A stretch of 64,000 nt of DNA from Balneolaceae bacterium (GCA_018401935.1 JAGYJQ010000001.1:1-64000), one strand, 5' to 3'. Shown: positions 1 through 17,142, counted from the stretch's first letter. Program-made: numbers and translations. Notes: generated by a model not told the origin, from the letters alone.

Positions 1-2
1 AG

Positions 3-1286
3 GTATCGGGAACCTATTCGTTTGCAGGGAAAAAAACTCCTTTCTTTAAGAACACTTTTCTAAGAAGCTCAGTACTTTTTTCACAAGAATTTAGTCGAGT
101 CGATCAAGTTGACCTCCAACTCTCCCGAAAGTTATTTAAAACAGGACGTGTCAACATCAACTTTTCTAATTCCTTTTTTACTAACAGTTCATTCATCCAA
201 GTGGGTTTAAATTTTAGCTTGTCAAAATGGGCTAGGTCAAGTACAAATATGAGGACCGATTTTCATGATGGAACAGTGCAACAGCGTATTCGAGGTTCAA
301 TAGGGGTGGACCATAAACATCGTTATTTAGAATTTACCGATCGTCAACAAGTAGGAAGAAGCAGTGCAACCGTTCGAATGTTCTTGGATAATGATGAAAA
401 TGGGAGATACTCAAGAGGAGATGTAATTATCCCGCATAAAGCAGTCGAGCTTGACCGGAGCGGAACGGTAAACCTAGGAGAAGATGGCCTAGTAAGGCTG
501 AGCCACCTCCAGAGTAATTATCGTTATAATTTGTCCGTCAATCGCAAATCTATACCTAATCCTTTATTGGTGCCGGATAGACAGTTCACAGAATTTTCCT
601 TTATTTCTGACCCAAATCAATATAAAATTATTGAAATACCATTTTATCAAGCTGGGGTAATTGAAGGAGTGGTGAATGTCCGCCGAAACGATGAATTAGA
701 AGGTCTAGGAGGGTTGCGACTATCCTTGAGCAGCTTGGATTCAGACTTTACAGCAAATTTACGAACGTTTCGAGGAGGTAGTTTTTATCAGATGGATGTT
801 CCTCCAGGAAAATATGCCTTAATAGCCGATCGACTTCAACTAGAAATGCTGGGCTTAACCCAGGAAAGTGGTGCCTATGAGGTGGAGGTAAAGAAAACAG
901 CCAATGGCGATTTTGTCCAGGGTTTAGAAATAATCTTATTACCGATCACTGATTCTGAGGAAGGTATTACCTACAATGGGTATTCATCAGCGTTGAACGA
1001 AAAGCAAAAGGTCTATGAAGAAGAATTGCGATTCGATCTTGCTAGAGCGTTGACCTATTTCACTTCGGCTCAACAGGCCTATTATCTACAACGCTATGAT
1101 TGGGCACTAGACTATATTGAAGATTCATTGGAATTATACAAGACACCACAATCTTTATCTGTAAAAGGGTCAATTTTATATTCAATGGGGGACGAGGCAG
1201 GGGCCAAAGCAGCATGGAGAGAAGCAGAGAGCTTAGATCCCGATTTGTTGTTGCCAAATGCTTCTCAAACTCTATTAAATGATTAA
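3..1286 (+). CDS. Usher-like outer-membrane barrel/TPR protein, 3' part (5' end outside window)
   Basis: The reading frame is open from base 3, so the GTG at 201 is an internal codon and the gene starts upstream of the window. The 427 visible residues begin with alternating hydrophobic and polar strands ending in aromatic residues, as in an outer-membrane barrel. A beta-sandwich follows (FLDNDENGRYSRGD), with a second one after EIPFYQAGVIEGVV ending in VPPGKYAL. This order resembles the C-terminal part of chaperone-usher type outer-membrane ushers. The last ~95 residues form one or two TPR-like helical pairs (YYLQRYDWALDYIEDSLELY). It lies 183 bp upstream of the FliF/FliG-like gene on the same strand. 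The usher assignment rests on motif resemblance only; another large surface barrel with carboxypeptidase-regulatory-like domains is possible. Confidence 0.6.
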   Translation, partial: VSGTYSFAGKKTPFFKNTFLRSSVLFSQEFSRVDQVDLQLSRKLFKTGRVNINFSNSFFTNSSFIQVGLNFSLSKWARSSTNMRTDFHDGTVQQRIRGSIGVDHKHRYLEFTDRQQVGRSSATVRMFLDNDENGRYSRGDVIIPHKAVELDRSGTVNLGEDGLVRLSHLQSNYRYNLSVNRKSIPNPLLVPDRQFTEFSFISDPNQYKIIEIPFYQAGVIEGVVNVRRNDELEGLGGLRLSLSSLDSDFTANLRTFRGGSFYQMDVPPGKYALIADRLQLEMLGLTQESGAYEVEVKKTANGDFVQGLEIILLPITDSEEGITYNGYSSALNEKQKVYEEELRFDLARALTYFTSAQQAYYLQRYDWALDYIEDSLELYKTPQSLSVKGSILYSMGDEAGAKAAWREAESLDPDLLLPNASQTLLND

Positions 1287-1469
1287 GTTATTTCTCGGAA
1301 ATGTGAAAAATAAATAGTAATTTAGATCAAGAACAACAATAGGGATTCTCACACACACAACATCGTTATAAGTTGCAAGATACGAGCGCTAAGGGTACAC
1401 ACTTTAGGTCAACAAAAGGTTGAGAAGCTCCCACTTACATTAGGTTAAACACTGGGTACAAAATACGCT

Positions 1470-3398
1470 ATGAAGCGGTTGCACTACATATTAGTTAAGG
1501 TATTGCTGTTAGGGATCACGATGGTATTCTCACTAACAACATTCATTTATGGATTCCAAAACGGAGAATCCAATAGCGAAGTTATTCCTGTTAATGATAT
1601 GAATTTATATATACTGAGTAATCAGTACGAAGCTTTGCTAGAGGAGCGAATTAACAAACGCCTTAGTCAGTATTTTCCAACATCAAGTTTTATAGTAGCG
1701 GTTGAAATAAACTTACTGGAAAATACTGAGTCCTTTGGATTGAACTCCGAAAATGAAGATACCCGGAACGATGATTCAAGATTATATACCGCTGTTCCAC
1801 AGTTTTTATTACCGGAATTAGGTGATCCAAATCCAGGCTCAGAGAATAATATAGATGTGCAGCTTGGAATTGATTTACAAAATATCAGCGTGATGGTAAA
1901 TCTAGACCAGAATGTAGATATCAATAATCAAGAGCAGGCATTCATACGCTTCGCTATCGAATCTATCATTAAATATGATGTAGATAGAGGGGATCAAATT
2001 ATATTGCAATCCCGATCTTTTCCACAACCGTTGAGTGCTTCATCAAATAATCTAGCTAACTCAAGTGCTAATGACCGTAGAATCACTTCTTTTGCTGATT
2101 CTTTACGAGCTTATTCTGGATTTAATTCTGCGGGTACAGGTGAGTTGATGGCTGTTACTTCTAGCTTGGAAAGTAGAATAAATCTATTGTTTCTTGCCAT
2201 AGTGTTAATGTTTGGTGCTGGGATTGCTTTTGTGGTATATGGTAAAAATTCAAAAGGAAATGAGACGTCTGTAGCTCCTTCAGTAATGCTGAGCACAGAT
2301 AATGGCAATAGTTATAGAGATGATATTAATGTTACTAATGATGTGGTCCGAAATTTAAACCATACGATAAAAAATGAGGGCTTAATAGAGTACTCGTTAA
2401 GTAATAATGATTCAAAAGAGGATAGAGAAACCGAAAGCTTACGCTTTTTAATGAAGTTAACTAGTGAGCGTCCAGCCGATATGGCAAGGATATTAGAATA
2501 TTGGTTTAGTACTGATATGCATAAGACTATTCAAATTATTCTTTCTGTTGATATTAAAATATTGATCATGCTTCGGCCTTATATCACCGATTCGGTGTAC
2601 AAAGAGTTGGTAAGTTTGATGAATGAGTATTTTGAAATGGATAATTATGAATACAAGCATAGCCTAGAGGATTTAGCAAAAGAAATAAAAGGCTTTGAAC
2701 AACCTCAGTCCTTTATTTTTAAATATCAACCAGTGAAAGATTTCAACTTCATTCAACTCATGAAGCTTGATGAATTAAAAACACTCATTGAAGTACTCGA
2801 CCTTACGGATACAGCCTTGGTACTAAGTCATTGCTCAAGGGATATGATTCAGCGACTAAGCGATATAATTGAAACTCAGTATTTAAACGAGCTTATTAAG
2901 CAGGCATATGTAGTTCAAAAAATGCCCTTATCGGAGTACCGAAATCACTCCAATAAAATTTTCAAAGAAATTCATTTAAACCAACAAGGAGATCATATGC
3001 CGGATTCATTGGTTTCTGATGTTGTGAGTATTATTGAGGGACTTAATTTAGAAAAGCAGCAGGATATTATTCGCTTTATGAAGAAAGAAGTGGATGCATA
3101 TACTCAAGACATAGCTCAAAAAGTGGTCACCTTAGATGTTATTGTAGATTTAGATAATGAAGAGTTAGATAAAGTAATTCGCCCGATAAAATCAGAAGTA
3201 TTGGCTTTAGCTATACGGGGTTTTGGATCAGGTATGCAAAATCGAATTATAGCTCTAAGACCAGAAAGAGAACAGATATTTATTGAACGAATAATGCATT
3301 CCGGAGAAGCAAGTTTGAAAGATATTAAACAAGCACAGTATCAACTTCTAAATCAACTCCGAAAGGTAGTACGACAGTCCAACACCGTAAATGTATAA
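1470..3398 (+). CDS. FliF-like/FliG-like fusion protein (rotor-type membrane protein)
   Basis: 642 aa. An N-terminal hydrophobic segment (residues ~7-28) is followed by a periplasmic region that follows the C-terminal FliF pattern: YEALLEERINKRLSQYF (53-69), then NISVMVNLDQ and a DRGDQI turn (172-177) matching FliF 'RGD.i.v'. A second membrane helix lies at ~236-257, where FliF has its last one. The cytoplasmic part resembles FliG: an EHPQ-like ERPA (333-336) and, from residue 552 to the end, a FliG C-domain pattern (LDVIVDLDNEEL, LALAIRG, IKQAQYQLLNQLRKV). R583 and R600 fall where E. coli FliG has K264 and R281; the D288/D289 and R297 positions are not clearly kept. FliF is normally over 500 aa and separate from FliG, so this is a shortened MS ring fused to a switch protein. 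The next gene starts 11 bp downstream. Confidence 0.72.
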   Translation: MKRLHYILVKVLLLGITMVFSLTTFIYGFQNGESNSEVIPVNDMNLYILSNQYEALLEERINKRLSQYFPTSSFIVAVEINLLENTESFGLNSENEDTRNDDSRLYTAVPQFLLPELGDPNPGSENNIDVQLGIDLQNISVMVNLDQNVDINNQEQAFIRFAIESIIKYDVDRGDQIILQSRSFPQPLSASSNNLANSSANDRRITSFADSLRAYSGFNSAGTGELMAVTSSLESRINLLFLAIVLMFGAGIAFVVYGKNSKGNETSVAPSVMLSTDNGNSYRDDINVTNDVVRNLNHTIKNEGLIEYSLSNNDSKEDRETESLRFLMKLTSERPADMARILEYWFSTDMHKTIQIILSVDIKILIMLRPYITDSVYKELVSLMNEYFEMDNYEYKHSLEDLAKEIKGFEQPQSFIFKYQPVKDFNFIQLMKLDELKTLIEVLDLTDTALVLSHCSRDMIQRLSDIIETQYLNELIKQAYVVQKMPLSEYRNHSNKIFKEIHLNQQGDHMPDSLVSDVVSIIEGLNLEKQQDIIRFMKKEVDAYTQDIAQKVVTLDVIVDLDNEELDKVIRPIKSEVLALAIRGFGSGMQNRIIALRPEREQIFIERIMHSGEASLKDIKQAQYQLLNQLRKVVRQSNTVNV

Positions 3399-3409
3399 AT
3401 AATGAGATT

Positions 3410-3937
3410 ATGTCTAAAAAATTAATAGTACGATTTAATCACAGAAGTTTAAATAGCTTATTAACTGGTAGCTTAGCTGCATGTATGATGGTATTAATGA
3501 GTTCATGTTCTAGTTCAAAAGACCTCGTCAGTAATAACCCGATTCCTTCTAATGCCGATACATCGGATACATTTTTAGTCCAGAATACGGGGGAAAATGC
3601 GATAAACTTGAACAACATAATGATCACCGATGTAGATGTCCTAGAATATTACAATAAGCAAGCTCAAACGGTGTTTGAACTATACGTTGAGGCGCAATAT
3701 CAATTTCGTAATATGAGATTTTATAATGCGCTAAGTTTACTAGACCGATCCATTGCAATCGTACCTACAATACAAGCGTATTTGTTGCAGGTTGTGATTT
3801 ATCACAGAATCGGTGAATCGGACAAAGCTATCCAAGTATATGCGCAAGCCGAGGAATTGAATAATGCTATGGGTGAAGACCTCATTCAACCTATTGAGCT
3901 TTTGACAGGGGTAACGGCTCGAAACAATAATGATTAA
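3410..3937 (+). CDS. TPR-like lipoprotein of the motor cluster
   Basis: 175 aa. The N-terminus has a charged start, a hydrophobic stretch and a lipobox-like LMSSC with the lipidated Cys at residue 33, so export and membrane anchoring are likely. Residues ~85-160 form a helical repeat typical of TPR proteins (ALSLLDRSIAIVPTIQAYLL, then GESDKAIQVYAQAEEL). It lies between the FliF/FliG-like gene and the MotA-like gene in the same direction, with 11 bp upstream and 70 bp downstream. By analogy with small TPR lipoproteins that help assemble secretins and pili, it may help place the outer-membrane component of this cluster. That role is inference; the protein family itself is not recognised. Confidence 0.6.
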   Translation: MSKKLIVRFNHRSLNSLLTGSLAACMMVLMSSCSSSKDLVSNNPIPSNADTSDTFLVQNTGENAINLNNIMITDVDVLEYYNKQAQTVFELYVEAQYQFRNMRFYNALSLLDRSIAIVPTIQAYLLQVVIYHRIGESDKAIQVYAQAEELNNAMGEDLIQPIELLTGVTARNNND

Positions 3938-4007
3938 AGCGAAATAAAGCGTGGTTTATGGACATCTCAATGGAACATTTTTTCCTAACGTATGATAGGG
4001 TAGTATT

Positions 4008-4838
4008 GTGAGATCCATGCGATTTAGCTTAGTTTCTTTAACACTGACCGTCATTGCTTTGCTAGTGCTTATCACTTCAGTGCTCGAGATTTCTGGATTT
4101 TTAAAGATTATACCTAGTACGGGAGCAATAGGAACACTTAATTTACCTAGCTTTGGAGTCATTATAGGAGGATTACTGTTAAGTTCAACATTATCCTATT
4201 CAGATACTGAAATAAAAAGTGCTCTTTCATTTACTAAGAATATCCTAATGCATCCCAGTTTTGGTAGAGAACTTGAGAGGAGGGATCTGCAAGAGCTGTT
4301 TCATTGGCAAAAAGAATTAAAAGCGAATTATAATATAGCTCGTAATGAACTTACCAAGACACTAAATAATACCTTTGAAGGCTATCTATTTACCTTAGCT
4401 AGTACTAATTATGAGCCGGAAAAGATACAAGAGTTAGGATTAATAAAAGCAAGGGAACGTTTTACTCACAAAAAGAATCTTTCAGCACTATTTGATCAGC
4501 TCAGTGATACCTCTCCGGCATATGGAATGTTGGGTACACTGGTTGGCCTTATTTTCATGTTACAACGCTTTGAGAGTGTTAAAGATCTTGGGGAAGGTTT
4601 GGCATTTGCGTTAATGACTACTTTCTACGGGCTTATTTTTGCCTACGTTATTTTTACTCCTCTATCGAAAAAAGCGGCACTTTATGCCGAGAAATCGTTA
4701 AAGAGGGATTTATTTATTTTGAATGGTTTCGTAATGATTCTCAAGGGAGAAGAGCCGTTGGTAGTGTTTGATTATCTTTGCGCTGATCGGGATGGATTCA
4801 TCTTTGACGATGAGCTCTCTGAAATAGGTTTGAGTTAA
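4008..4838 (+). CDS. MotA-like stator protein
   Basis: 276 aa with the MotA layout: two helices (~8-28 and ~41-62, the second with LPSFGVIIGGLLLSS), a cytoplasmic loop of about 100 residues, then two helices (~168-187 and ~199-220). The third helix carries SPAYGMLGTLVGLI, matching the conserved MotA proline region (P170), and the fourth ends in FTPLSKK (P218), matching the second conserved proline. These are the residues that couple ion flow to rotor contact in MotA. The length is normal for MotA (about 250-295 aa) and there is no long cytoplasmic tail of the ZorA kind. The GTG at 4008 opens the frame; the ATG at 4017 is an alternative start. It pairs with the MotB-like gene 50 bp downstream. 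Confidence 0.75.
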   Translation: MRSMRFSLVSLTLTVIALLVLITSVLEISGFLKIIPSTGAIGTLNLPSFGVIIGGLLLSSTLSYSDTEIKSALSFTKNILMHPSFGRELERRDLQELFHWQKELKANYNIARNELTKTLNNTFEGYLFTLASTNYEPEKIQELGLIKARERFTHKKNLSALFDQLSDTSPAYGMLGTLVGLIFMLQRFESVKDLGEGLAFALMTTFYGLIFAYVIFTPLSKKAALYAEKSLKRDLFILNGFVMILKGEEPLVVFDYLCADRDGFIFDDELSEIGLS

Positions 4839-4888
4839 AGTATTTTTTTTTCTGAACATGTATAGAAAAATTTGTAAATAATGACGGC

Positions 4889-5560
4889 ATGATACAGTAT
4901 CAAGAAGTACTAGAGACCTTAAAAAATGTCCCTTCTAAAGGTTCTTGGCAATCAAGTTTTTTGGATATAATATTACTGTTGATGTCGTTTTTCATCATTA
5001 TCGTGGGTATCTCAAAATTTGATTCATTTGATTCATCCATTGGATCAGATAAACAAATAACTGATAACTCTGTAGCAATTCAAGAACGATCCATCAATAA
5101 TTTATACCTTGAATTAAGTCTACTACTAGAGGCGGAAATAGGGCAAGGAGATTTGAACATCGAGTTAGAGAATAATGAAATAGAAATTACTCTGAGTAAT
5201 GAATTACTCTATAACGTGGGGTCTGCCGAGCTTTATCCAAGTGGCATGGATATTCTAAACCGTATAGCCTCAAGAATATTACTGGTAGAGGAAGAAGAGT
5301 TTTTTGTTGATGTAGAAGGGCACACCGACAATCGACCTATTAATGGGGGAAAATATGAGTCAAACTGGGACTTATCCACCGCACGATCTTCCAATGTGGT
5401 AAAAGTACTGCTTAATAAAGGCTTTAGTCCCCGCCGCATACGAGCTTCAGGCTACGCCGATGCACAACCATTGGTGCCTAACCTAGATCAATTTGGTAAT
5501 CCTATAAAAGAAAATCAGGCGAAAAATAGGCGTTTTGAATTGCGTATGTACATGAATTAA
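4889..5560 (+). CDS. MotB-like stator protein with OmpA domain
   Basis: 223 aa. A single membrane helix (~23-41) is preceded by WQSSFLDIILLLMSFF, which aligns with the MotB ADFMTAMMAFF signature. D26 sits at the position of the ion-binding Asp (D32 in E. coli MotB). A linker rich in charged residues leads to an OmpA/MotB peptidoglycan-binding domain (~105-222) with GHTDNRP (144-150), NWDLSTARS (159-167) and NRRFEL (213-218). The protein should insert in the inner membrane with MotA-like subunits and anchor the stator to the cell wall. It is shorter than many MotB proteins (about 260-310 aa). It is the last gene of the plus-strand cluster; the next gene is an unrelated metabolic enzyme. Confidence 0.8.
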   Translation: MIQYQEVLETLKNVPSKGSWQSSFLDIILLLMSFFIIIVGISKFDSFDSSIGSDKQITDNSVAIQERSINNLYLELSLLLEAEIGQGDLNIELENNEIEITLSNELLYNVGSAELYPSGMDILNRIASRILLVEEEEFFVDVEGHTDNRPINGGKYESNWDLSTARSSNVVKVLLNKGFSPRRIRASGYADAQPLVPNLDQFGNPIKENQAKNRRFELRMYMN

Positions 5561-5693: not shown

Positions 5694-6674
5694 ATGATAT
5701 ACAAATCAATTATTGATGCGGTAGGAAACACACCCATTGTTCAACTTCAACACATATATCAAGGCCTGGGATCTATGTTGGCTAAAGTTGAATACATGAA
5801 CCCCGGAAACAGCGTTAAAGATAGGATTGCTATCAAAATGATAGAAGACGCTGAGAAAAAGGGACTATTGAAACCAGGCGGAACAATCATTGAAGGAACT
5901 TCAGGAAATACCGGGATGGGGCTTGCGTTGGTGGCCATAGCCAAGGGATATAAATGTATTTTTACCACGACCGATAAACAAAGTCAATCTAAAATCGATA
6001 TTTTACGAGCTGTAGGCGCTGAGGTGCTTGTGTGTCCGACCAATGTTGAGCCAGAAGATCCACAAAGCTATTATTCGGTAGCTAAGCGATTAAGCTCGGA
6101 ATTATCCAACTCTTTTTATCCGAATCAGTACGATAATAAGAGTAATTTATTAGCCCATTATGAAACCACGGGACCCGAAATATGGGAGCAAACTGAGGGC
6201 GCTATAACTCATTATGTCGCTGGAATGGGGACTGGTGGTACCATATCAGGAGTGGGTAAGTTTTTAAAAGAGCAAAATCCCGATATTAAGGTCATTGGGA
6301 TTGATTCGTTTGGTTCAGTTTATAAAAAGTATTTTGAGACAGGTGAGTTCGATAAAAACGAAATAAAGCCTTACATGACCGAAGGCATCGGTGAGGATAT
6401 TATTCCCGGTACCATAGATTTTAGTTATGTTGATCAGGTCATTCAAGTCGGAGATAAAGAAGCGGCTCTTCGAACTCGGGAGCTCGCCTCTAAAGAAGGC
6501 TTGTTTATAGGATGGTCATGTGGCGCGGCTGTTGAAGGGGCGCTAGAGTACCTAAAAAATAATCCTCTATCCGCCAATGATACTATGGTAGTTATACTAC
6601 CAGATAGTGGAACCCGATACTTAAATAAAGTGTATAATGACGATTGGATGAAAGAGCAGGGTTTCTTAGAATAA
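5694..6674 (+). CDS. Cystathionine beta-synthase-like/cysteine synthase PLP enzyme
   Basis: 326 aa, fold type II PLP enzyme of the cysteine synthase/cystathionine beta-synthase family. The PLP-binding Lys is K42 in NPGNSVKDR. TSGNTG (69-74) binds the substrate carboxylate, and GMGTGGTISG is the phosphate-binding loop. The region VLVCPTNVEPEDPQSYYSVA followed by FYPNQYDNKSN resembles CBS rather than CysK. There is no C-terminal Bateman (CBS-pair) domain, as in bacterial CBS-like enzymes. It probably makes cystathionine from serine and homocysteine, or cysteine from an activated serine; the sequence alone does not separate these. The gene stands alone after the motor cluster, with its own possible promoter. 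Confidence 0.85.
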   Translation: MIYKSIIDAVGNTPIVQLQHIYQGLGSMLAKVEYMNPGNSVKDRIAIKMIEDAEKKGLLKPGGTIIEGTSGNTGMGLALVAIAKGYKCIFTTTDKQSQSKIDILRAVGAEVLVCPTNVEPEDPQSYYSVAKRLSSELSNSFYPNQYDNKSNLLAHYETTGPEIWEQTEGAITHYVAGMGTGGTISGVGKFLKEQNPDIKVIGIDSFGSVYKKYFETGEFDKNEIKPYMTEGIGEDIIPGTIDFSYVDQVIQVGDKEAALRTRELASKEGLFIGWSCGAAVEGALEYLKNNPLSANDTMVVILPDSGTRYLNKVYNDDWMKEQGFLE

Positions 6675-7113: not shown

Positions 7114-8193
7114 TTACTTTCGTATTTGTTTAAGACCGACTACGCCCACACACAAGAAAAGTAGATGTGGAATAAGTGCAGCCCAAATTGGAGGCAGTAG
7201 TCCTAGTGCACCAAAAGGTTCCATGATTTTCATGATAACCAAGTACAAGAAGCTGATCACCAAGCCGGCAGCAATGTACACCCCTTTGCCCCCTCTACGT
7301 CGAACAGCTGCCACCGCAAATCCAATAATCAAGACCACAATAATTGAGAAAGGGTAAGCCATGCGGGCATATAGTTGAACTTGAGGGATTTCAATTCCAC
7401 TCGCGCCACTACGCTTAATTCCATCAATATATTGAAAGGCTTGGGTATAACTCAATTGATAAATATCGGAGCTACTTCGCGCTAAATCTTGTGGAAGCAG
7501 GCTAAGTAGGGTATCGAATCCTGCTACATTACGCTCTACAAAGCCTGAATCGGTGAATACCCGTTCTTGAACGGTGGTTAGACGCCACTCATTTTTATCT
7601 TCCAACCACGCCATATTTGTGGCCGTTAGAAGTTTTTTCACACCTCTTTGGTCGAATTGAACCATCCGAATTCGATAGGCTGTTTGTTGGTCACGATCGA
7701 AATAATTGACCTGTAAATAACTGCCAGCAGATAGTTCTCGATAAATATCGCTACGATCCAGTTGTTCATTTTTTTGCTTAATGTATTGCTCTTCAAACTG
7801 AATCCTTTGGGCATTAGAAGCAGGAATAATCCAGGCATCTAAGGCGCTAAGTCCTACCGCACTTAGTAAACCAAAAAGTATAAAAGGTGCAAATAATCGA
7901 TAGAGACTCACACCCGCTGCTTTTAGGGAAGTAATTTCAAGACGCTCCGAGAGTTGACCCACCAAATATAAACAAGCCGTAAAAATGGCTAAAGGTAGTA
8001 CGAGTCGAATCATTTCGGGGATGTAATTGATATAATAATCGCCCCAAATTTCTCCCATGCTAGCACCCCGATCAGTAAAGTCATCGCTATTCTCTGAGAA
8101 ATCGATAATAACAAAAATGAATATTAGCACTATCAAAACAAGTGATGTGATAGAAACTAACCTAAGAATGATATAACGATCTAGGTGTTTCAC
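7114..8193 (-). CDS. lptG: LptF/LptG family permease (LptG position)
   Basis: 359 aa inner-membrane permease of the YjgP/YjgQ family, part of the LptB2FG transporter that extracts lipopolysaccharide and passes it to the periplasmic bridge. It has N-terminal helices (MKHLDRYIILRLVSITSLVLIVLIF is split by the first membrane crossing), the SLKAAGVSLYRLFAPF coupling region, a periplasmic jelly-roll (~130-260) and three C-terminal helices. Its ATG overlaps the stop of the upstream lptF-type gene by four bases (ATGA), so the two are translationally coupled. Which of the pair is F and which is G is assigned by order only. Confidence 0.85.
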   Translation of the reverse strand: MKHLDRYIILRLVSITSLVLIVLIFIFVIIDFSENSDDFTDRGASMGEIWGDYYINYIPEMIRLVLPLAIFTACLYLVGQLSERLEITSLKAAGVSLYRLFAPFILFGLLSAVGLSALDAWIIPASNAQRIQFEEQYIKQKNEQLDRSDIYRELSAGSYLQVNYFDRDQQTAYRIRMVQFDQRGVKKLLTATNMAWLEDKNEWRLTTVQERVFTDSGFVERNVAGFDTLLSLLPQDLARSSSDIYQLSYTQAFQYIDGIKRSGASGIEIPQVQLYARMAYPFSIIVVLIIGFAVAAVRRRGGKGVYIAAGLVISFLYLVIMKIMEPFGALGLLPPIWAALIPHLLFLCVGVVGLKQIRK

Positions 8194-9605
8194 GTACCCT
8201 TTTGTTCTGGTTTTTTTGGAATAAAAGAGCGTAAATCATAGCTCAAGTGAAGCAGAAGTGTTAGCCCGATACCCATGTATAGCATATTAAATGACCACAT
8301 TCCCAAAAAAGGGCTAATAAACAATCTATCGGCTAATTTCTCACCCTGAATTACCGATATCCAATATACCGTTAACACTAAAGAGGCAATAATTGCGGCG
8401 TACCCAACATTGCCTTTCCGAGTGAGTATTCCTATCGGTGCACCCAATAAGACAAATATAATGCAGGCAAAAGGAATAGAAAATTTTTTGTGTATCTCAA
8501 CCCAGTACCTTTGAATTCGTTTGACCCGCCACAATTCATTACTTTTAGCTCGCTCTATTTGAGATTGGGCATTTTCAACTTGGCTGTAGCCTAAATTTGC
8601 TAGACGAATTTGCTGGGTAGTCGAGCCGACTTGGTTCAGAATGAAGAGAGTTGATTGGGCTATATGTCCTGATTCAGTAGGCTTGGTCGATGCAGCACCA
8701 TGGTTGAAGGTACCGGGATGAAGCGTACTAATGGAATCCTCAACTATTTGATAGCGCAGTTCTTTTATTTCTTGCTCGAGGGTATCTACAACAAACGCCA
8801 TCGCTTGAATGCTCATGGTACGATCACTACGAGAAGTACCTGAGCCCCTACTGCGATTAAACGCTAAGTCCGAAAGATCAAAGGTTTTTCGGTGCTTGTG
8901 AAACTCGATTTGCTCCATATTTCGGTCTCGAGTAGCCGCTCGTTTACTTGGATATCGAAGAATTTCGCCATCGAATAAATGCAAGGTAAGCGCTTCAGTA
9001 CCCTCACTTGTTAAAAAACCTTTATCTGCTTTGATGTAGGCTCTATTTTGATTGTTGGTGGGCTCTTGAAACAGGGTGATGTTATATAAAGTATCCGAAA
9101 CAGGATCTATTCGGTCGACCAGAAAGGTGTAACCTTCAATGCCATCATAAAACACGTTGGGTTCTAACTCAAAACCAGGCTTTTTTAGTCGAATATCGAT
9201 AAATAGGCTTCTAGCTTTACTATTGGCTTCGGGGAGCACTGCATTTGAAAACCACATAAGCCCAACAGAAAGTAAAGTAGAGGCTACCAAAACGGGCATG
9301 ATTATCTGTAGGGTATTAACTCCAGATGCTCTGAGGGCAGTTAATTCATTGTTTTCAGAAAACTTTCCAAAAGCCATCATACTAGCAACTAACACTGCCA
9401 TAGGTGCTGCAAGAACAACCATATAAGCTAGATTGGTAATGATTAGTTCAAGAATAACCCCAAAAGGAATATCCTTACCGATGAGTTTATCGATATGTAA
9501 TACCAAGAACTGCATAAGTAGCACAAACATGACCCCGAAGAAACAAAAGAGGAACGGCCCCAAATGTTTTTTGAGTAAATCTATTTGTAAAGGGTTTAAT
9601 TTCAT
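8190..9605 (-). CDS. lptF: LptF/LptG family permease (LptF position)
   Basis: 471 aa, same family and overall topology as its downstream neighbour. Signature parts are the first helix (FCFFGVMFVLLMQFLVLHI), ELTALRASGVNTLQIIMPVL (the coupling helix contacting the LptB ATPase) and the C-terminal helices from FSIPFACIIFVLLGAPIGI. It is about 100 residues longer than typical LptF. The extra length lies in the periplasmic part (~240-340), which includes a helical, Gln- and Glu-rich stretch. It is the first gene of a two-gene minus-strand operon and is divergent from sprA, with 181 bp between the two starts. Confidence 0.85.
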   Translation of the reverse strand: MKLNPLQIDLLKKHLGPFLFCFFGVMFVLLMQFLVLHIDKLIGKDIPFGVILELIITNLAYMVVLAAPMAVLVASMMAFGKFSENNELTALRASGVNTLQIIMPVLVASTLLSVGLMWFSNAVLPEANSKARSLFIDIRLKKPGFELEPNVFYDGIEGYTFLVDRIDPVSDTLYNITLFQEPTNNQNRAYIKADKGFLTSEGTEALTLHLFDGEILRYPSKRAATRDRNMEQIEFHKHRKTFDLSDLAFNRSRGSGTSRSDRTMSIQAMAFVVDTLEQEIKELRYQIVEDSISTLHPGTFNHGAASTKPTESGHIAQSTLFILNQVGSTTQQIRLANLGYSQVENAQSQIERAKSNELWRVKRIQRYWVEIHKKFSIPFACIIFVLLGAPIGILTRKGNVGYAAIIASLVLTVYWISVIQGEKLADRLFISPFLGMWSFNMLYMGIGLTLLLHLSYDLRSFIPKKPEQKGT

Positions 9606-9786: not shown

Positions 9787-12700
9787 GTGCCAACACTACA
9801 GTTCAGATGCATTTGTATATGTTGGGCGACAATATCACTTATTTTCGCCTTGGTGGGAGATGTGCGTCTTTTTGCTCAGGAGCGTGGAGGTGGACAGAGT
9901 CGAAGCATGCAGCAGCAACAGCAGCAGCAACAACGGCAACAGCAGCAAGAAGATGAGGAACTTAGTCAAGATTCCCTGTTAATTGAAATAATACCGGATA
10001 GTTTACTTTTAGGTGTAAAATTATATCGGTACCAGCCAAAATTCGGAGCAGCCAAACTGTACGCTCCCAAAGTGGGGGCGTTGTACTCAAGTCCATCAAC
10101 CAGATGGGACATAGGAGTGCGCTGGGATAGCGTTTCAACCTACACCATTCAAAACTATTGGTATAGCACCGATATAGTTCCGCAAACCATTGTAGATTTT
10201 GAGGATTTTATATCGTTAAAAATGGAGCAAAATCAGCTGGCTATTCGCCAACAACTCATTCGCGAAGCTAAGGCGCAACAAGAGGAGAGTCGGGGATTGT
10301 TGGATTTTCGGATTTCGGTTCCAGGGGGCGAGAATTCTGCCTTTACCACCATTTTCGGTACCGATGAGGTAAGTCTAAGGGTGAACGGTTCAGCCAATAT
10401 GAACGTGGGCGCCTCTATTCAGAAACTTGACGACGGGACCCTGCCAGAAGATCTTCGTACTAGGGTAGATCCTACCTTTAACCAGAACCTACAGCTCAAT
10501 ATTCAAGGTAATATTGGGGATAAGTTAACCATTGCTACCGATTGGGATACCGAGCGACAATTCGATTTTCAGAATAGACTCAGTATTGTGTATGAAGGCT
10601 ACGAGGATGAAATTATTAAAAGTATTGAGATGGGAAACGTATCCATGGAAACCGGAAATTCCCTGGTTTCTGGTGGTAAATCACTCTTCGGAATAAAGGC
10701 CATTTCGGAGTTAGGCCCCCTTAAGTTAACCTCCGTAGTCTCGCAACAAAAAGGAAAGAGTAATTCCCAGAAAATATCAGGAGGTTCTCAAGAACAGGCT
10801 ATTGATATCACCCCTGCAGATTATGAGGATGGACGTCATTTTTTCTTGGATTTTTATAACCGTCAGCAATTTGAGCAAGCATTAAGCGATCCTCAAAACA
10901 TCTTGCAACCCTATCAGGTGTCAGAATTGTATGTGTATGTCCGCAGGGCTGAGCAAATTCCAGGCGAATCTGCGGTACAGGCCATTGCCTTACTCGATTT
11001 AGGGGTGAATAGGTTTAATGATCAGTTATACGGATTGCCAGGTAATGATCGGGATCGGTACGATGAGACCATCTTAAATGAATTGAGGGCGACCAACTCT
11101 AATGCCACCAATGAGGATTTTGGAGCAACATCTCAAGAATATGTAGATGCTCCATTTGAATTGCTGCAAGAGGGTATTGATTACACCTTTAACCGAGCAC
11201 TGGGCTTCATAAGTATGAAGAGCTACATTAACACAGGTGATGCGGTTGCGGTTGCCTATGTATACAACGATCCTGAGCAGGGTGGGGCACCCATAGCGGT
11301 AGGAGAGTTAAATTCCTCGGGGAATGATCGAATCTATTTAAAGTTACTGCGGCCAGGGGGGATGACCACCTCGGATAAAGCATGGGAGTTAACGATGCGA
11401 AATATCTATTCATTAGGCGTTTCTGGGATTAACCCAGAAGGATTTGAGCTTGAAATTGCGGATACACGAGGTAACATACCCGAAGTAAATTTACCTGGCA
11501 GGTCTACTACGTTGTTGCAGGATTTGGGACTCGACCGGTTAAATTCTGAAGGAGCGACTATTCCAGATAATCAGATTGATTTTACAGGAATTACCCTTGA
11601 TGCTGGAGCCGGTCGTATCATGTTCCCGTATCTAGAGCCATTCGGGAAGCGAATCGATGAAATTCTTGGGAACTCGGTGAGTGATTCGATACGTCAATCC
11701 CTAACCTTTGAGGAATTGTATGAGCTCAAACAAAGTGATGCCCGTGACATCTCCAAAAACCGAAATTATACGATATCCGGTAACTCCAAGGGTGGGGTTT
11801 CCGGATCTTTTTATCTTGGCTTTGGTCTTATTGAGGGCTCGGTTAAAGTGTTTGCTAACAATGTGGAGTTGACCGAAGGTACTGATTTTGAAGTCGATTA
11901 CTCGTTTGGATCACTCACCATCATGAATGAACGCTACCTTGCCCCAGGGCAAGAAATAGAAGTAGAGTATGAGAGTAACCAGTTCTCAATCATCGGGCAG
12001 AAAAATTTTACAGGTTTAAGAGCCGAATATCGCGTAAATGATGATATTCAATTTGGTAGTACTTTTTTCAAATTAAAAGAACAGCCACTGTCGGATAAAA
12101 TTCGAATTGGCAATGAGCCTATCAATAACACGGTCTTAGGCTTGGATGCTCGAGCCAATTTTGAAGCGCCTTGGCTAACTCAGGCTATCGATAGGGTACC
12201 ATTACTTCAGACCAAAACTCCGTCAAATATTCAATTTAGTGGGGAGTTTGCTCAGCTTCGCCCAGGAGTAGCCCAAACCAATGCGGTACAGGAAGCTATT
12301 GATAACAATGAACTGTATTGGGACGAAGAAAACGGGTTGGTTTTCATAGATGACTTTGAGGGGGCCGAATATACTATTAGTCTAACCAATCCAACCCGTT
12401 GGAATCTAGCTTCTGCACCAGCTGCTTTACCAGGCTATGCTCCAGATGAGACCTATTTTGCCAATCCAGATTTTACCACCCCTCAAAGTAGTTTTGACCG
12501 AAAGGCGCGAGCAGATTTACGATCTCAATTTTCATGGTACTCCATTCCTCGGAACATCAGTTCTATTCGTAATGCCATTGTTACTCCTGAATCGGAAACT
12601 ATTTTATTGAAGGATGTATTCCAGGGGCGGGAAACCAACAATCGCCAAGAAGATGTCATTACTTCGCTTGACATTCATTACAACCCAACCAAACGAGGGC

Positions 12701-15700
12701 CATATAATTATAATATGGATCTCAAAAACATGTTAGAAAATACGCCTGAGCATACATGGGGTGGGATGACCTATGTCATACCTTCTGGGCAAGAAGATTT
12801 GGTGCAAAATAACATCGAGTTTTTAGAGTTTTGGGTCCAGGCAATTTTACCAGGTGGCCAAGATCCAACCGGGGAAGAAGCCTTCTATGATGGTAAAATC
12901 TATCTGGATTTAGGTATTATTTCAGAAGATATCATTCCTAATGTTAGGCTTAACACAGAAGACGGCCTTTCTACGGTGTTAAATAACCTGCAAGAAGATG
13001 ATGCAGAGTCTCAGCCGCGTTCCTACATCCCACCATCCCCACCGGTCCCCCTCGGTCAATTTTCAAACGATAAAAGAGCTTTAGAGGATGTGGGCCTTGA
13101 TGGCGCTCCCAATCCAGGGACTCCAGGAGCCGAAAACAGGGATGAAGGAGCTCTTTTTGGGGACTTTATTGAGGCTATGCGGGCGCAGTATGGGGAAGGA
13201 ACAGAAGAATTCTCCATGATTCAAGAAGACCCCTCCAACGATGATTATGTCTATTATGGAGAAAACAAGGTGCTCGATTTCAAGCTACATGAACGCTTTT
13301 TTAGAATGTTAGGATATCACGAAGGGAACACCCCGGAAAGCGGTGGTAGTGATAATAAAACGGCCGTAACCTTAAAGCCCGATACAGAAGGCCTGGTCAG
13401 TGCGTCATCCATTCAACAAAGCAATTCGTATTATCAGTACGAAATTGACTTTAATCCTGCCGATGCTTCACAATTGAATATCGGTTCATCTGGTAGCTAC
13501 ATTGTAGACAAAATACCCCGAAATCCAGAGTACAAAACTTGGTACTTGGTACGCGTTCCATTGAGTGATTTTAAGCGAAAATTTGGGGACATAGAGAGCT
13601 TTCAGAACATATCTTATATCCGAATGTGGATGTCGGGGTACCAAAAACCATTTACCATGCGATTCGCAACCTTGGAGTTTGTGGGTTCTCAATGGAGAAA
13701 GGTAACCAATTTAAGTGATAGCCCAGTGAATCCAGGGGATTTTAAGTTATCCACGATTAATATCGAAGAAAATGCCAACAGAGAACCCTTTCCGTACCGT
13801 CAACCCGATGGGGCCATTAGAGCATTGAATCGAAGTGCACAAATTCAGGCGTTGGAAAACGAACAGTCATTAGTGCTAAGTGTGGAAAACTTAGAGGCTG
13901 GCAAGGTTCAAATGGTTAAGCGAGTGTACCCTGGTAAATTGAACCTCCTTAATTATTCAAATATGCGAATGTTTGTGCATGGGGAAGGTTTTGACAGGCG
14001 CGGAGATGCGGAGTTAGTGGTTCGTTTAGGAACAGATTTGGAGAACAATTACTATGAATATCGCCAGCCGGTAAGTCCATCGGAGCCTATGCCATTTAAT
14101 TACGACCCATCTGATGCGGGCCAATTAGAGGTAGAGGCTGCAGAAATTTGGCGATACGACGAAAATAATATGAACATTATCATATCGGCATTTAATGTAC
14201 TTAAGCAACTTCGGGACGATGCAGGCGCCGATCCAACCGAAGTGTTTGAACAAAAGGGTTTGTTAGATCCTGAAGTAGCGGTAGATGGGGCCGTGGTTTC
14301 GATTAAAGGGAATCCTTCTTTGGACCGAGTGACTGAAATAGGGTTGGGTATACGAAATCCATATGATCCACAGAATGTGAACTCAAAAGGTTCTCCTTTA
14401 TTAAATGCTGAGATGTGGTTAAATGAGTTACGGCTGTCTGGATTTGATAACGAAAAAGGCTGGGCGGCGAATGCCAAATCGAGTATTAAATTTGCCGACT
14501 TCGCTACCGTTAATGCTAATCTTACCCGAAGAACCAATGGCTTTGGGGGACTTGAATCGCGTTTAGGGGATCGAAGTGTGTCCGATCAAACCGCGTACGG
14601 AATTAGCTCAACCATTAACCTGCATAAACTTATTCCTGACCGTTTTGGGTGGAGCTTTCCAGTGACTATATCCAGCAGGGTTAATACGCAAACTCCGAAG
14701 TATTTACCATCACAGGGGGATATTCGCTTGACCGATTTTATCGATAAGGTGAATGCCGATGAATCGGTGCCATCTAATTTGAAAGAAGACGTTATTAATG
14801 CCAAGATCAATGATATTGAGACGGTAAACGAGACTTTTTCATTCAATGTTTCAAATATATCTAAGCGTAATTCTAAGCCAAAATGGGCTCAGTTAACCTT
14901 GGATAACACCAAGTTAAGTTATGTGTACAACGAGGGGTATTCTAAAAACCCACAATTGGTTTTTCAGAATAAGTGGGACTACAAAGCTTCTATTCAGTAC
15001 AATTTATCTCTGCGACGCATTAAGCTACTACAGCCATTCAAATTCACTCAGGGTATTCCTGTTCTTGGGGCATTATCCGAGCTTCGATTGGGTTATTTAC
15101 CTTCTTCTATAACGGCTTCCTCCACACTTACCCGGCGTTATGACGAATCCCGGAGACGTAACCTTAGTAATCCTGAGGAGATTCAAGCTCTGCAACAATC
15201 TCACGCATTCACCCAGCAGAATCGGTTTTCCTTTAGCTATAATTTTATGCCCTCGATTCCAATTACCTTCACGAGTTCATCCAATTTTGATTTTTCGAGT
15301 TTAGGTATTAACCCCAGCAATCGGGACGATGTGGATAGTTTATCCTACCGAATTAAACCAAGTTTTGATGTTATAAAAGGGGCGCTTAGAGATACCTTAG
15401 CGCCTCGGAGATCATCCTACCAAGAGAGTTATTCGGCTAGTTGGAGACCTAAACTTAACGCCATTGATGCTTTGAACTGGTTAACCTACTCCGCCTCTTA
15501 TGGGGGAGGCTATCAGTGGACCAATAGTCCTAGCGGTTCAGATTTAGGAGCCAATGTGTCTAATTCTTTTCAGCTTGATAACACCTTTAAGGTAAGCACG
15601 AGTCGACTCTTGGAAAAGTTTGGATGGTATGAAAAGGTGGAAGAGACCAACAAGAATGAAACGAAACTTCGAAGCGATGGTAAAGAAAAACGCAAAGAAG

Positions 15701-17142
15701 AAATTGAAAGCGGCGTAGCAGATAGCCTCAGAACTCCTAAACCACCCCCAGATTTGGTCAAGGATGTGCAGTATCTCTCACGTAAAGCACTACTTACCCT
15801 ATTAAGTCTAGAGGATATTTCTATTGGATATAAACGGCAAAAAAGTGGCTCACAACCTGGTTATTCAGGCTCTTCGGAGTTCTTTAAGTCATTCAATGAT
15901 GCATCCTCTGGCGATTATTCACCCCCATTGGCATACCGGCTAGGACTAAAAGATCGAATCCCAAAGCAGCAGCTAATTGGAAACTTAGATGGAGATAATA
16001 GTATTCAACTTCCAGCTAATAATACCCAAGGGGATAATTTTTCTGCGAGTACACGTATTAGTCCATTTGAAAATGTGACGGTAAACTTGGACTGGGATGC
16101 CAGTATTTCACAGAAAAGTACAGAAACAATTACTCTGACACCTACTAACGAGATTACATCCATCGGAACAGAATCGGGTTCGTTTAGTTCTTCGGTATGG
16201 GCCTTTGGTGGTGGATATAAGGATCTATTTCAACGTCAGCTGGAGACGGCGGTCCTGGATATTAGACCTGGTGAGCGTTCTATTGTGGATTCGTTGGGGA
16301 ATAGCGATGGACGAGGGGTATTAAACCGTACAACCCTCCAAGAAGACTACATGAAAGCTTATTTAGGAGCTGGATCTAATGGGTTAGGTGAAAAAGGGTT
16401 TATGGCGTTCCCTAAACCGGGTTGGCGAGTGACATGGAACCGTTTGGAAAAATATATACCCTTCATAGGGCAGTACATGACTAATGCCTCATTGAATCAC
16501 GCTTATCGAGGCACCTATAAAGTAGATTGGAGTTTGAATGCTTTGGTAGGCGAGCAGTCAGGACAGAATATTGGGGATTATTCTATTATAGATGTGCGTG
16601 GAAGTTATGAGCCGACCTCGATTAGGGCTGAGCGTCGGTTTTCACCATTTGTGAAATTAAATATGACCTGGCAATCGGGTTTAAAAACCGATATTGGCTA
16701 TGATAGAAGTACTATTTCTACCTTTGCAGTGAGCTCAAAGCGGGTTACAGAGACCCTGACTCAAGGGGTGGATGCCTCTATTAATTACATATTCCGGAAC
16801 GTACGGATTTCTTTCTTGCCTAAGCTTCGGAATAATATTGATATGAGCCTTCGTGGGAGCTATAAAAACGATACAGAAATATCCTATAAACTCGATACCG
16901 ATTTGGATAATGCGCTACAAGATGGGATAACGATGGATCAAGTTGGTAGCGCCGAAACACTTAGCGCAAGAGAAACAGGGCAGCAACGAATCAACGGTAG
17001 TTTTACCCTGGGTTATAAAATATCCTCTACTATCTCATCTAATTTTGAGTATACTTATTCAAGAATCGAGTCCAATAACATTCCCACTCGTACCAATCAT
17101 GATATTCGGTTTAACTTTAGGATAGCCATTCGGTCACGGTAG
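9787..17142 (+). CDS. sprA: SprA (Sov) type IX secretion translocon
   Basis: 2451 aa, in the size range of SprA, the giant outer-membrane barrel through which T9SS cargo crosses the outer membrane. The GTG at 9787 follows an in-frame TAG at 9784 and yields a signal peptide (residues 1-30, ending RLFAQ), so this start is well supported. The mature N-terminus has a glutamine tract (42-54), then repeated SprA-type beta modules (for example FGIKAISELGPLKLTSVVS and VFANNVELTEGTDFEVDYS). The C-terminus is barrel strands ending in DIRFNFRIAIRSR. It stands alone between the divergent lptF and convergent lnt genes. Its likely cargo in this window are the two proteins with type A sorting domains at 35211 and 41236. 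Confidence 0.9.
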   Translation: MPTLQFRCICICWATISLIFALVGDVRLFAQERGGGQSRSMQQQQQQQQRQQQQEDEELSQDSLLIEIIPDSLLLGVKLYRYQPKFGAAKLYAPKVGALYSSPSTRWDIGVRWDSVSTYTIQNYWYSTDIVPQTIVDFEDFISLKMEQNQLAIRQQLIREAKAQQEESRGLLDFRISVPGGENSAFTTIFGTDEVSLRVNGSANMNVGASIQKLDDGTLPEDLRTRVDPTFNQNLQLNIQGNIGDKLTIATDWDTERQFDFQNRLSIVYEGYEDEIIKSIEMGNVSMETGNSLVSGGKSLFGIKAISELGPLKLTSVVSQQKGKSNSQKISGGSQEQAIDITPADYEDGRHFFLDFYNRQQFEQALSDPQNILQPYQVSELYVYVRRAEQIPGESAVQAIALLDLGVNRFNDQLYGLPGNDRDRYDETILNELRATNSNATNEDFGATSQEYVDAPFELLQEGIDYTFNRALGFISMKSYINTGDAVAVAYVYNDPEQGGAPIAVGELNSSGNDRIYLKLLRPGGMTTSDKAWELTMRNIYSLGVSGINPEGFELEIADTRGNIPEVNLPGRSTTLLQDLGLDRLNSEGATIPDNQIDFTGITLDAGAGRIMFPYLEPFGKRIDEILGNSVSDSIRQSLTFEELYELKQSDARDISKNRNYTISGNSKGGVSGSFYLGFGLIEGSVKVFANNVELTEGTDFEVDYSFGSLTIMNERYLAPGQEIEVEYESNQFSIIGQKNFTGLRAEYRVNDDIQFGSTFFKLKEQPLSDKIRIGNEPINNTVLGLDARANFEAPWLTQAIDRVPLLQTKTPSNIQFSGEFAQLRPGVAQTNAVQEAIDNNELYWDEENGLVFIDDFEGAEYTISLTNPTRWNLASAPAALPGYAPDETYFANPDFTTPQSSFDRKARADLRSQFSWYSIPRNISSIRNAIVTPESETILLKDVFQGRETNNRQEDVITSLDIHYNPTKRGPYNYNMDLKNMLENTPEHTWGGMTYVIPSGQEDLVQNNIEFLEFWVQAILPGGQDPTGEEAFYDGKIYLDLGIISEDIIPNVRLNTEDGLSTVLNNLQEDDAESQPRSYIPPSPPVPLGQFSNDKRALEDVGLDGAPNPGTPGAENRDEGALFGDFIEAMRAQYGEGTEEFSMIQEDPSNDDYVYYGENKVLDFKLHERFFRMLGYHEGNTPESGGSDNKTAVTLKPDTEGLVSASSIQQSNSYYQYEIDFNPADASQLNIGSSGSYIVDKIPRNPEYKTWYLVRVPLSDFKRKFGDIESFQNISYIRMWMSGYQKPFTMRFATLEFVGSQWRKVTNLSDSPVNPGDFKLSTINIEENANREPFPYRQPDGAIRALNRSAQIQALENEQSLVLSVENLEAGKVQMVKRVYPGKLNLLNYSNMRMFVHGEGFDRRGDAELVVRLGTDLENNYYEYRQPVSPSEPMPFNYDPSDAGQLEVEAAEIWRYDENNMNIIISAFNVLKQLRDDAGADPTEVFEQKGLLDPEVAVDGAVVSIKGNPSLDRVTEIGLGIRNPYDPQNVNSKGSPLLNAEMWLNELRLSGFDNEKGWAANAKSSIKFADFATVNANLTRRTNGFGGLESRLGDRSVSDQTAYGISSTINLHKLIPDRFGWSFPVTISSRVNTQTPKYLPSQGDIRLTDFIDKVNADESVPSNLKEDVINAKINDIETVNETFSFNVSNISKRNSKPKWAQLTLDNTKLSYVYNEGYSKNPQLVFQNKWDYKASIQYNLSLRRIKLLQPFKFTQGIPVLGALSELRLGYLPSSITASSTLTRRYDESRRRNLSNPEEIQALQQSHAFTQQNRFSFSYNFMPSIPITFTSSSNFDFSSLGINPSNRDDVDSLSYRIKPSFDVIKGALRDTLAPRRSSYQESYSASWRPKLNAIDALNWLTYSASYGGGYQWTNSPSGSDLGANVSNSFQLDNTFKVSTSRLLEKFGWYEKVEETNKNETKLRSDGKEKRKEEIESGVADSLRTPKPPPDLVKDVQYLSRKALLTLLSLEDISIGYKRQKSGSQPGYSGSSEFFKSFNDASSGDYSPPLAYRLGLKDRIPKQQLIGNLDGDNSIQLPANNTQGDNFSASTRISPFENVTVNLDWDASISQKSTETITLTPTNEITSIGTESGSFSSSVWAFGGGYKDLFQRQLETAVLDIRPGERSIVDSLGNSDGRGVLNRTTLQEDYMKAYLGAGSNGLGEKGFMAFPKPGWRVTWNRLEKYIPFIGQYMTNASLNHAYRGTYKVDWSLNALVGEQSGQNIGDYSIIDVRGSYEPTSIRAERRFSPFVKLNMTWQSGLKTDIGYDRSTISTFAVSSKRVTETLTQGVDASINYIFRNVRISFLPKLRNNIDMSLRGSYKNDTEISYKLDTDLDNALQDGITMDQVGSAETLSARETGQQRINGSFTLGYKISSTISSNFEYTYSRIESNNIPTRTNHDIRFNFRIAIRSR
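9910..9948 (+). repeat. CAG/CAA tract encoding polyglutamine in SprA
   Basis: Thirteen codons encode 12 Gln and one Arg (residues 42-54), written as mixed CAG and CAA triplets. The tract sits just after the predicted signal peptide cleavage site, so a change in its length would not disturb the barrel. Confidence 0.9.

Follow-up and report, generated by a model that had tools for sequence, protein, structure and literature searches.

A gene for an outer-membrane usher and genes for a flagellar-type rotor and stator lie together in one operon at the beginning of a 64,000-nucleotide stretch of DNA from a Balneolaceae bacterium (GCA_018401935.1, JAGYJQ010000001.1:1-64000; hereafter the window), an association which suggests a type of pilus machine, ion-powered and possibly rotating, of which the literature that was searched gives no description. 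Both the linkage of these genes and the identity of the motor parts are well supported. Ion flow through the stator may turn the rotor ring and move an outer-membrane structure, a proposal backed by the strict co-occurrence of the motor with a TPR tail on the usher.

Gene content and conservation of the usher locus

In the window, five genes (3-5560) follow one another head to tail on the + strand, in the order usher C-terminal part, FliF/FliG fusion, TPR lipoprotein, MotA and MotB (Table 1). The initial annotation, which had described five closely spaced genes of one direction here, was right about all of them, and its outer-membrane barrel/TPR protein has proved to be the C-terminal part of an usher of ~1000 residues. 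An unrelated cysteine synthase-type gene lies at 5694, after the motor genes, and consensus promoters and terminators occur at chance level only. Farther along the window, an LptF/LptG-like pair on the opposite strand (7114-9605) and, near the motor cluster, a very large SprA-like gene (2451 aa; 9787-17142) of the type IX secretion/gliding type have been called by their appearance.

Table 1. Features assigned to the usher and motor genes at the start of the window.
Feature	Position	Strand	Evidence
Outer-membrane usher, C-terminal ~427 residues (barrel end, periplasmic Ig-like domain, TPR tail)	3..1286	+	Alignment to full ushers of relatives; 5' part lost at contig end
Usher C-terminal TPR tail; within the usher family, in motor-linked members only	984..1286	+	TPR_2; tail comparison across the family
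FliF/FliG-like rotor fusion, 642 aa	1470..3398	+	FliG_C; FliG profile; AlphaFold model matching FliF and FliG structures
Periplasmic RBM3-like (FliF ring-building) domain, residues 42-182, FliF-like 'RGD...FP' motif	1593..2015	+	Model; Foldseek; YscJ_FliF_C 0.018
Transmembrane helix, residues 226-259, joining periplasmic and cytoplasmic parts	2145..2246	+	Long helix in model; hydrophobic sequence
FliG middle and C-terminal (torque) domains, residues ~399-635	2664..3374	+	FliG_C; FliG profile; residue comparison
TPR lipoprotein, lipobox Cys near residue 33	3410..3937	+	TPR matches; homology group in common with usher TPR tail; N-termini compared
Flagellar-class MotA, 276 aa, four transmembrane helices, ~100-residue cytoplasmic loop	4008..4838	+	MotA_ExbB 2e-15 (Pfam)
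MotB: one transmembrane helix with Asp26 (codon 4964-4966), plug, OmpA-type peptidoglycan-binding domain	4889..5560	+	OmpA 1.5e-14, MotB_plug 1.3e-4 (Pfam)

Contig C1 ends at base 1 of the window, which leaves the genes upstream in this organism unreadable. The genome measures 2.6 Mb and is 94% complete, and neither the N-terminus of the usher nor a chaperone of the usher-linked family was found on its other contigs; given the missing chaperone, this genome's own copy of the system could be incomplete. A survey of gene neighbourhoods, which the initial annotation had called for, revealed the order pilin-like genes, chaperone, usher, rotor, TPR lipoprotein, MotA and MotB in relatives, the full order being found on contigs labelled Balneolota, Bacteroidota and Ignavibacteriota. 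Pilin-like and candidate chaperone genes, which it had proposed to look for upstream, are thus present in relatives, whereas in the window's own genome, where their place is beyond the contig end, they were not found. Chance is excluded as the source of the arrangement, since about 20 distinct genomes share this gene order. In two further copies of the usher-motor locus (L042:9857-13966 and L177:7895-12839), the rotor gene is shortened or damaged (354 and 522 aa) and no MotA or MotB was detected within the stretch; both are perhaps decaying duplicates.

The first gene gives a Pfam match to TPR_2 (E = 7.5e-7). The full-length usher of a relative (about 1000 aa) has been modelled with AlphaFold (pLDDT 86), and the model shows the plugged beta-barrel fold of FimD/PapC topology, matching FimD at E = 4.4e-30 in a fold search whose best 19 PDB matches were all FimD or PapC. 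This fold was recovered by structure search only: two full-length members gave no match to the Pfam usher signature at E 0.5, and usher and chaperone profiles compared with the PDB by sequence alone found no usher or PapD. Upstream of the usher in relatives, the chaperone-like gene has weak PapD_N matches in 9 of 31 cases (best 6.7e-4), while DUF4402 was detected in 16/30 of the small, secreted pilin-like proteins (best 9.9e-11). In some genera, the pilin-like genes come after those for a DUF4900 protein and for a small secreted protein (fam22, fam21) (L034:18586-19998, L039:704-2173, L046:848-2320). Ushers have also been found on contigs labelled Thioalkalivibrio, Nitriliruptoraceae and an archaeon (L072, L075, L084); they nest among Bacteroidota sequences in the usher tree, so that these bins are probably mislabelled or contaminated.

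Rotor and stator proteins

The FliG profile, the structural model, the Foldseek matches and the matches to genuine FliF proteins together identify the second gene product as a fusion of the FliF RBM3 domain with FliG. Pfam gave FliG_C at E = 2.6e-11 and a weak YscJ_FliF_C match (0.018), and a profile built from nine usher-linked rotor relatives matched FliG structures across the middle and C-terminal domains at 4.6e-27. The window's rotor has been modelled with AlphaFold at modest overall confidence (pLDDT 71, pTM 0.35). The model comprises a signal helix, a periplasmic domain of the form alpha-beta-(insert)-beta-alpha-beta, one transmembrane helix and FliG-like helices, and Foldseek searches with it returned FliF RBM3 ring structures at about 1e-4 and FliG at about 1e-6. 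The rotor family profile matches the C-terminal half of genuine FliF proteins adjoining genuine FliG, and the N-terminal half of the rotor matches the flagellar FliF of the window's genome, which lies beside a true FliG, at E = 4.9e-7. Profile and structure tests therefore bear out the FliF/FliG-like fusion first proposed from the sequence, which was to be abandoned had profile searches shown no such similarity. The FliF part is reduced, since Pfam YscJ_FliF (PF01514), found on the genome's true FliF, has no match on the fusion and the RBM3-like region alone was found; the fusion also reaches only 29.4 bits against the NCBI FliG equivalog cut-off of 226.7.

Residues important in FliG have been compared across 25 rotor family members, numbered on an E. 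coli segment presumed to be correct, whose R281 and D289 columns agree with those of T. maritima FliG. The equivalent of R281 is kept in 24/25 and that of D289 is acidic in most members. The torque residues corresponding to K264 and D288 are mostly lost, which counts against a motor acting on the usher, and the FliM-binding EHPQ motif is absent in all 25. The usher-linked rotors group together in the FliG tree (95/93), which separates them both from flagellar FliG (100/99) and from the non-flagellar sister groups B and C (described below), with details made uncertain by some long branches (L090, L097, L117).

The MotA-like and MotB-like calls have survived profile tests, and the stator is of flagellar class. 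The MotA family profile matches solved MotA/PomA at 1e-47 and TolQ only at 8e-3, and MotB combines a transmembrane Asp with an OmpA domain. Across motor-linked and flagellar copies, P170, T204, T205 and P218 of MotA are invariant, as are the channel residue Asp26 and the peptidoglycan-binding GHTD motif of MotB. SPOR repeats have been found on MotB in several Balneolaceae. In usher-type loci of this family (L034:6790-8520, L048, L050, L051, L053), MotB has a long extension beyond the OmpA domain, bearing in L034 SPOR repeats, the same kind of domain as on the tails of motorless ushers.

The loss of some torque residues and the absence of switch proteins would fit a complex that performs no mechanical work, the FliF/FliG ring and MotAB serving as a scaffold or as a load sensor that reports fibre tension. 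Such a role is considered very unlikely, as neither the ion-channel residues nor the peptidoglycan anchor varies.

Co-switching with the usher tail and independence from flagella

A single-sequence scan of genome contigs with the fusion protein gave no match, and an alignment of ushers was used instead, yielding 80 loci of the usher family. Wherever the usher has a C-terminal TPR tail, a rotor gene lies directly downstream, and where the tail is lacking there is none, even where as much as 10 kb can be read. When rows whose downstream sequence is unknown are left out, the TPR tail is present in 21/21 motor-linked and 0/43 motorless loci, with no mixed cases. The tail was scored with a TPR-only model, as an HMM built with motorless ushers among its sequences called TPRs spuriously on account of its mixed tail. 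A quick tree of the barrel region only (77 rows) indicates that the motor has changed about nine times, and on well-supported branches the TPR tail switches together with it in all eight independent pairs (8/8, p = 0.0078). Two phylum surveys with rotor and usher profiles, covering 393 genomes, agree with this pattern: among the matches listed, each full-length TPR usher has an adjacent rotor match (for example in G012, G017, G024, G029, G030, G032, G036, G042, G093, G107, G148, G203, G215, G231, G335 and G396). One candidate, L090, taken for a TPR usher without FliG, was rejected, its protein being the TPR lipoprotein and not an usher. In the Balneolaceae isolate ANBcel3, ushers have a TPR tail that starts at the end of a contig.

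Motorless ushers either end with the barrel or carry tails that are mostly peptidoglycan-binding (of 37 tails, 29 with SPOR and 4 with OmpA). The tail swap may be read as an exchange, by which the usher would either be anchored to the wall or be handed to a motor. By analogy with GldLM, which powers type IX secretion, the motor might energise secretion and fibre assembly rather than movement of the finished fibre, with ion flow driving conformational work in the usher such as plug opening and subunit passage. In this cluster type, the outer-membrane component that invariably accompanies the motor is the usher, and it is the usher tail that changes with the motor, the pilin-like genes being similar in loci with and without it. 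However, most loci of the same usher family have no motor, known ushers need no external energy (PMC3960871), and a FliF/FliG ring with peptidoglycan-anchored, flagellar-class stators seems more than gating requires. Powered assembly is held to be unlikely.

The usher-motor cluster contains no FlhA export gate, FliM/FliN switch, rod, hook or filament genes, in agreement with the initial annotation, which had seen no export apparatus, rod, hook or flagellin. A separate flagellar set (FliF, FliG, a FliI-type ATPase, FliM, FliN, FliP, FlhA and its own MotA) lies on contig C34 of the window's genome (G000). A full flagellar gene set with the cluster as a normal part of it had been named as grounds for giving up the interpretation; the set exists, but the cluster does not belong to it. 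FlhA and FliM/FliN were absent from 13 motor-bearing genomes (G012, G020, G024, G030, G036, G042, G057, G093, G107, G148, G203, G215 and G231), which carry usher-type or sister motor clusters, and since the cluster persists in relatives that lack FlhA and FliM/FliN altogether, it is no part of the flagellum. The presence of a true flagellar set in the window's genome would suit a degenerate remnant, flagellar genes stranded beside an usher with no joint function. This is judged extremely unlikely, given an order conserved across distant lineages, a rotor group separate from flagellar FliG, the loss of the FliM site in all members alongside retained channel residues, the presence of the cluster in genomes without flagella and its repeated co-switching with the usher tail.

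Two sister arrangements have also been observed. In the window's genome, a second non-flagellar motor cluster (type B; L031:7970-13221, G000:C3) encodes a FliF/FliG fusion, a barrel-like protein, a TPR lipoprotein, MotA and MotB, with no usher. Type B is also found in L035, L037, L038, L041, L047, L166, L169, L170, L173 and L174, from the same family; several members of the window's genus in which the usher type was not found have it. Its barrel-like protein (~360-400 aa) has no Pfam match and resembles a small barrel of the outer membrane. Type C, a third arrangement (L161:4914-10211, L162:8772-14242, L163:5123-10399, L164), comes from another family of the phylum and has the order barrel-like protein, TPR, MotA, MotB and FliF/FliG; the barrel-like proteins of types B and C appear to be distant relatives (hhalign E 7e-5).

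A special form of the motorised usher would be a gliding or tread machine, in which many ushers with adhesive fibres ride the edge of the turning ring and the cell crawls. The parallel is with SprB adhesins, for which the T9SS motor is believed to provide the drive. Many carriers of the cluster lack flagella, and in types B and C the rotor is the same but its outer-membrane partner is another, barrel-like protein, which suggests a general way to move outer-membrane proteins. Nothing in the sequences points to lateral movement, and gliding of this kind is regarded as rather unlikely.

A putative motorised usher and known systems

The reading considered probable is that of a motorised chaperone-usher machine, in which MotAB would drive a FliF/FliG ring coupled through TPRs to the usher. 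In MotAB/FliG motors, ion flow turns MotA around MotB, pushing FliG, and a push of this kind is likely here in view of the kept channel residues, the peptidoglycan anchor and the FliG C-domain. Ion-passing MotA/MotB units, anchored in the peptidoglycan through the OmpA domain of MotB, would push the FliG-like C-terminal domains of an inner-membrane ring. This ring would be built by a single protein, with FliF RBM3 in the periplasm and FliG in the cytoplasm, and would operate with no FliM/FliN, rod, hook or type III export. Torque could then pass from the RBM3 ring to the TPR lipoprotein and on to the TPR tail of the outer-membrane usher, the tail standing in place of the SPOR or OmpA peptidoglycan anchor of many motorless ushers of the family. 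The TPR tail and the related TPR lipoprotein would be the obvious couplers to the ring. The usher and its pilin fibre would be moved, or their assembly energised; the favoured form is a ring that carries round or rotates ushers and fibres. The coupling geometry counts against a motorised usher, as one or two barrels make up an usher, against ~30 subunits in a FliF ring. Nor is the need for a motor obvious, because chaperone-usher pili are thought to require no external energy (PMC3960871).

Among the 5.39 million open-access papers searched, no description of a system of usher, FliF/FliG and MotAB was found; an earlier description may exist in preprints or closed-access journals. The main text of a 2025 survey of MotAB diversity (PMC12505986) mentions neither ushers nor Bacteroidota. 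A review lists only three proton-driven rotary machines, namely ATP synthase, the flagellum and the T9SS motor (PMC9127263). A conserved FliF/FliG-MotAB module in an usher operon would add a fourth machine, supply pili with power and indicate how little a working flagellar-type motor needs, namely one ring protein and two stator proteins. The chances appear evenly balanced that this is a new class of ion-driven rotary nanomachine, in which a minimal FliF/FliG-MotAB motor turns usher pores and pili, the sister types B and C drive other barrels, and the flagellar rotor-stator pair is a transferable power module outside the flagellum.

The cluster shares with the bacterial flagellar motor the RBM3 ring domain, the FliG M and C domains, a flagellar-class MotA, and a MotB with channel Asp and OmpA anchor. 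It differs in that FliF and FliG are fused, with FliF reduced to RBM3 plus a transmembrane helix, and in that the usher cluster is without FliM/FliN, export gate, rod, hook and filament and occurs in genomes without flagella. The question of flagellar origin is touched, since this motor occurs in the absence of an export gate, a switch and a rod. To our knowledge, no FliF/FliG ring accompanies AglRQS/Glt, TolQR, ExbBD or ZorAB. AglRQS/Glt gliding, TolQR, ExbBD and the ZorAB proteins of Zorya are other non-flagellar users of MotA/MotB-like units (PMC12505986, PMC9389320). In comparison with TolQR and ExbBD, the MotA described here sides with MotA/PomA and not with TolQ. Zorya defence was rejected as an identity for the stator genes: MotA (276 aa) is without a ZorA-like long tail and had no PADLOC match, no ZorC/D or ZorE adjoins, and MotB matches ZorB through the shared MotB/OmpA region only.

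With chaperone-usher pili (FimD/PapC, PapD and archaic types), the system has in common the usher fold and, upstream in relatives, a putative PapD-like chaperone and several small secreted pilin-like proteins. These pili have been described as forming without an external energy source (PMC3960871), whereas the ushers studied here, too divergent for the Pfam model, have a C-terminal TPR tail and an adjoining rotor and stator. GldLM, a proton-driven motor of 5:2 type, serves outer-membrane secretion in Bacteroidota (PMC9389320, PMC9127263). No Gld family was found among the Pfam matches of the MotA and MotB proteins or among their NCBIfam matches (for MotB, the best 25 listed). As in the type IX secretion/gliding motor, motor units of an ion-driven type are linked to an outer-membrane secretion component, but here these are a FliF/FliG rotor and a MotAB stator, and the component is an usher rather than SprA.
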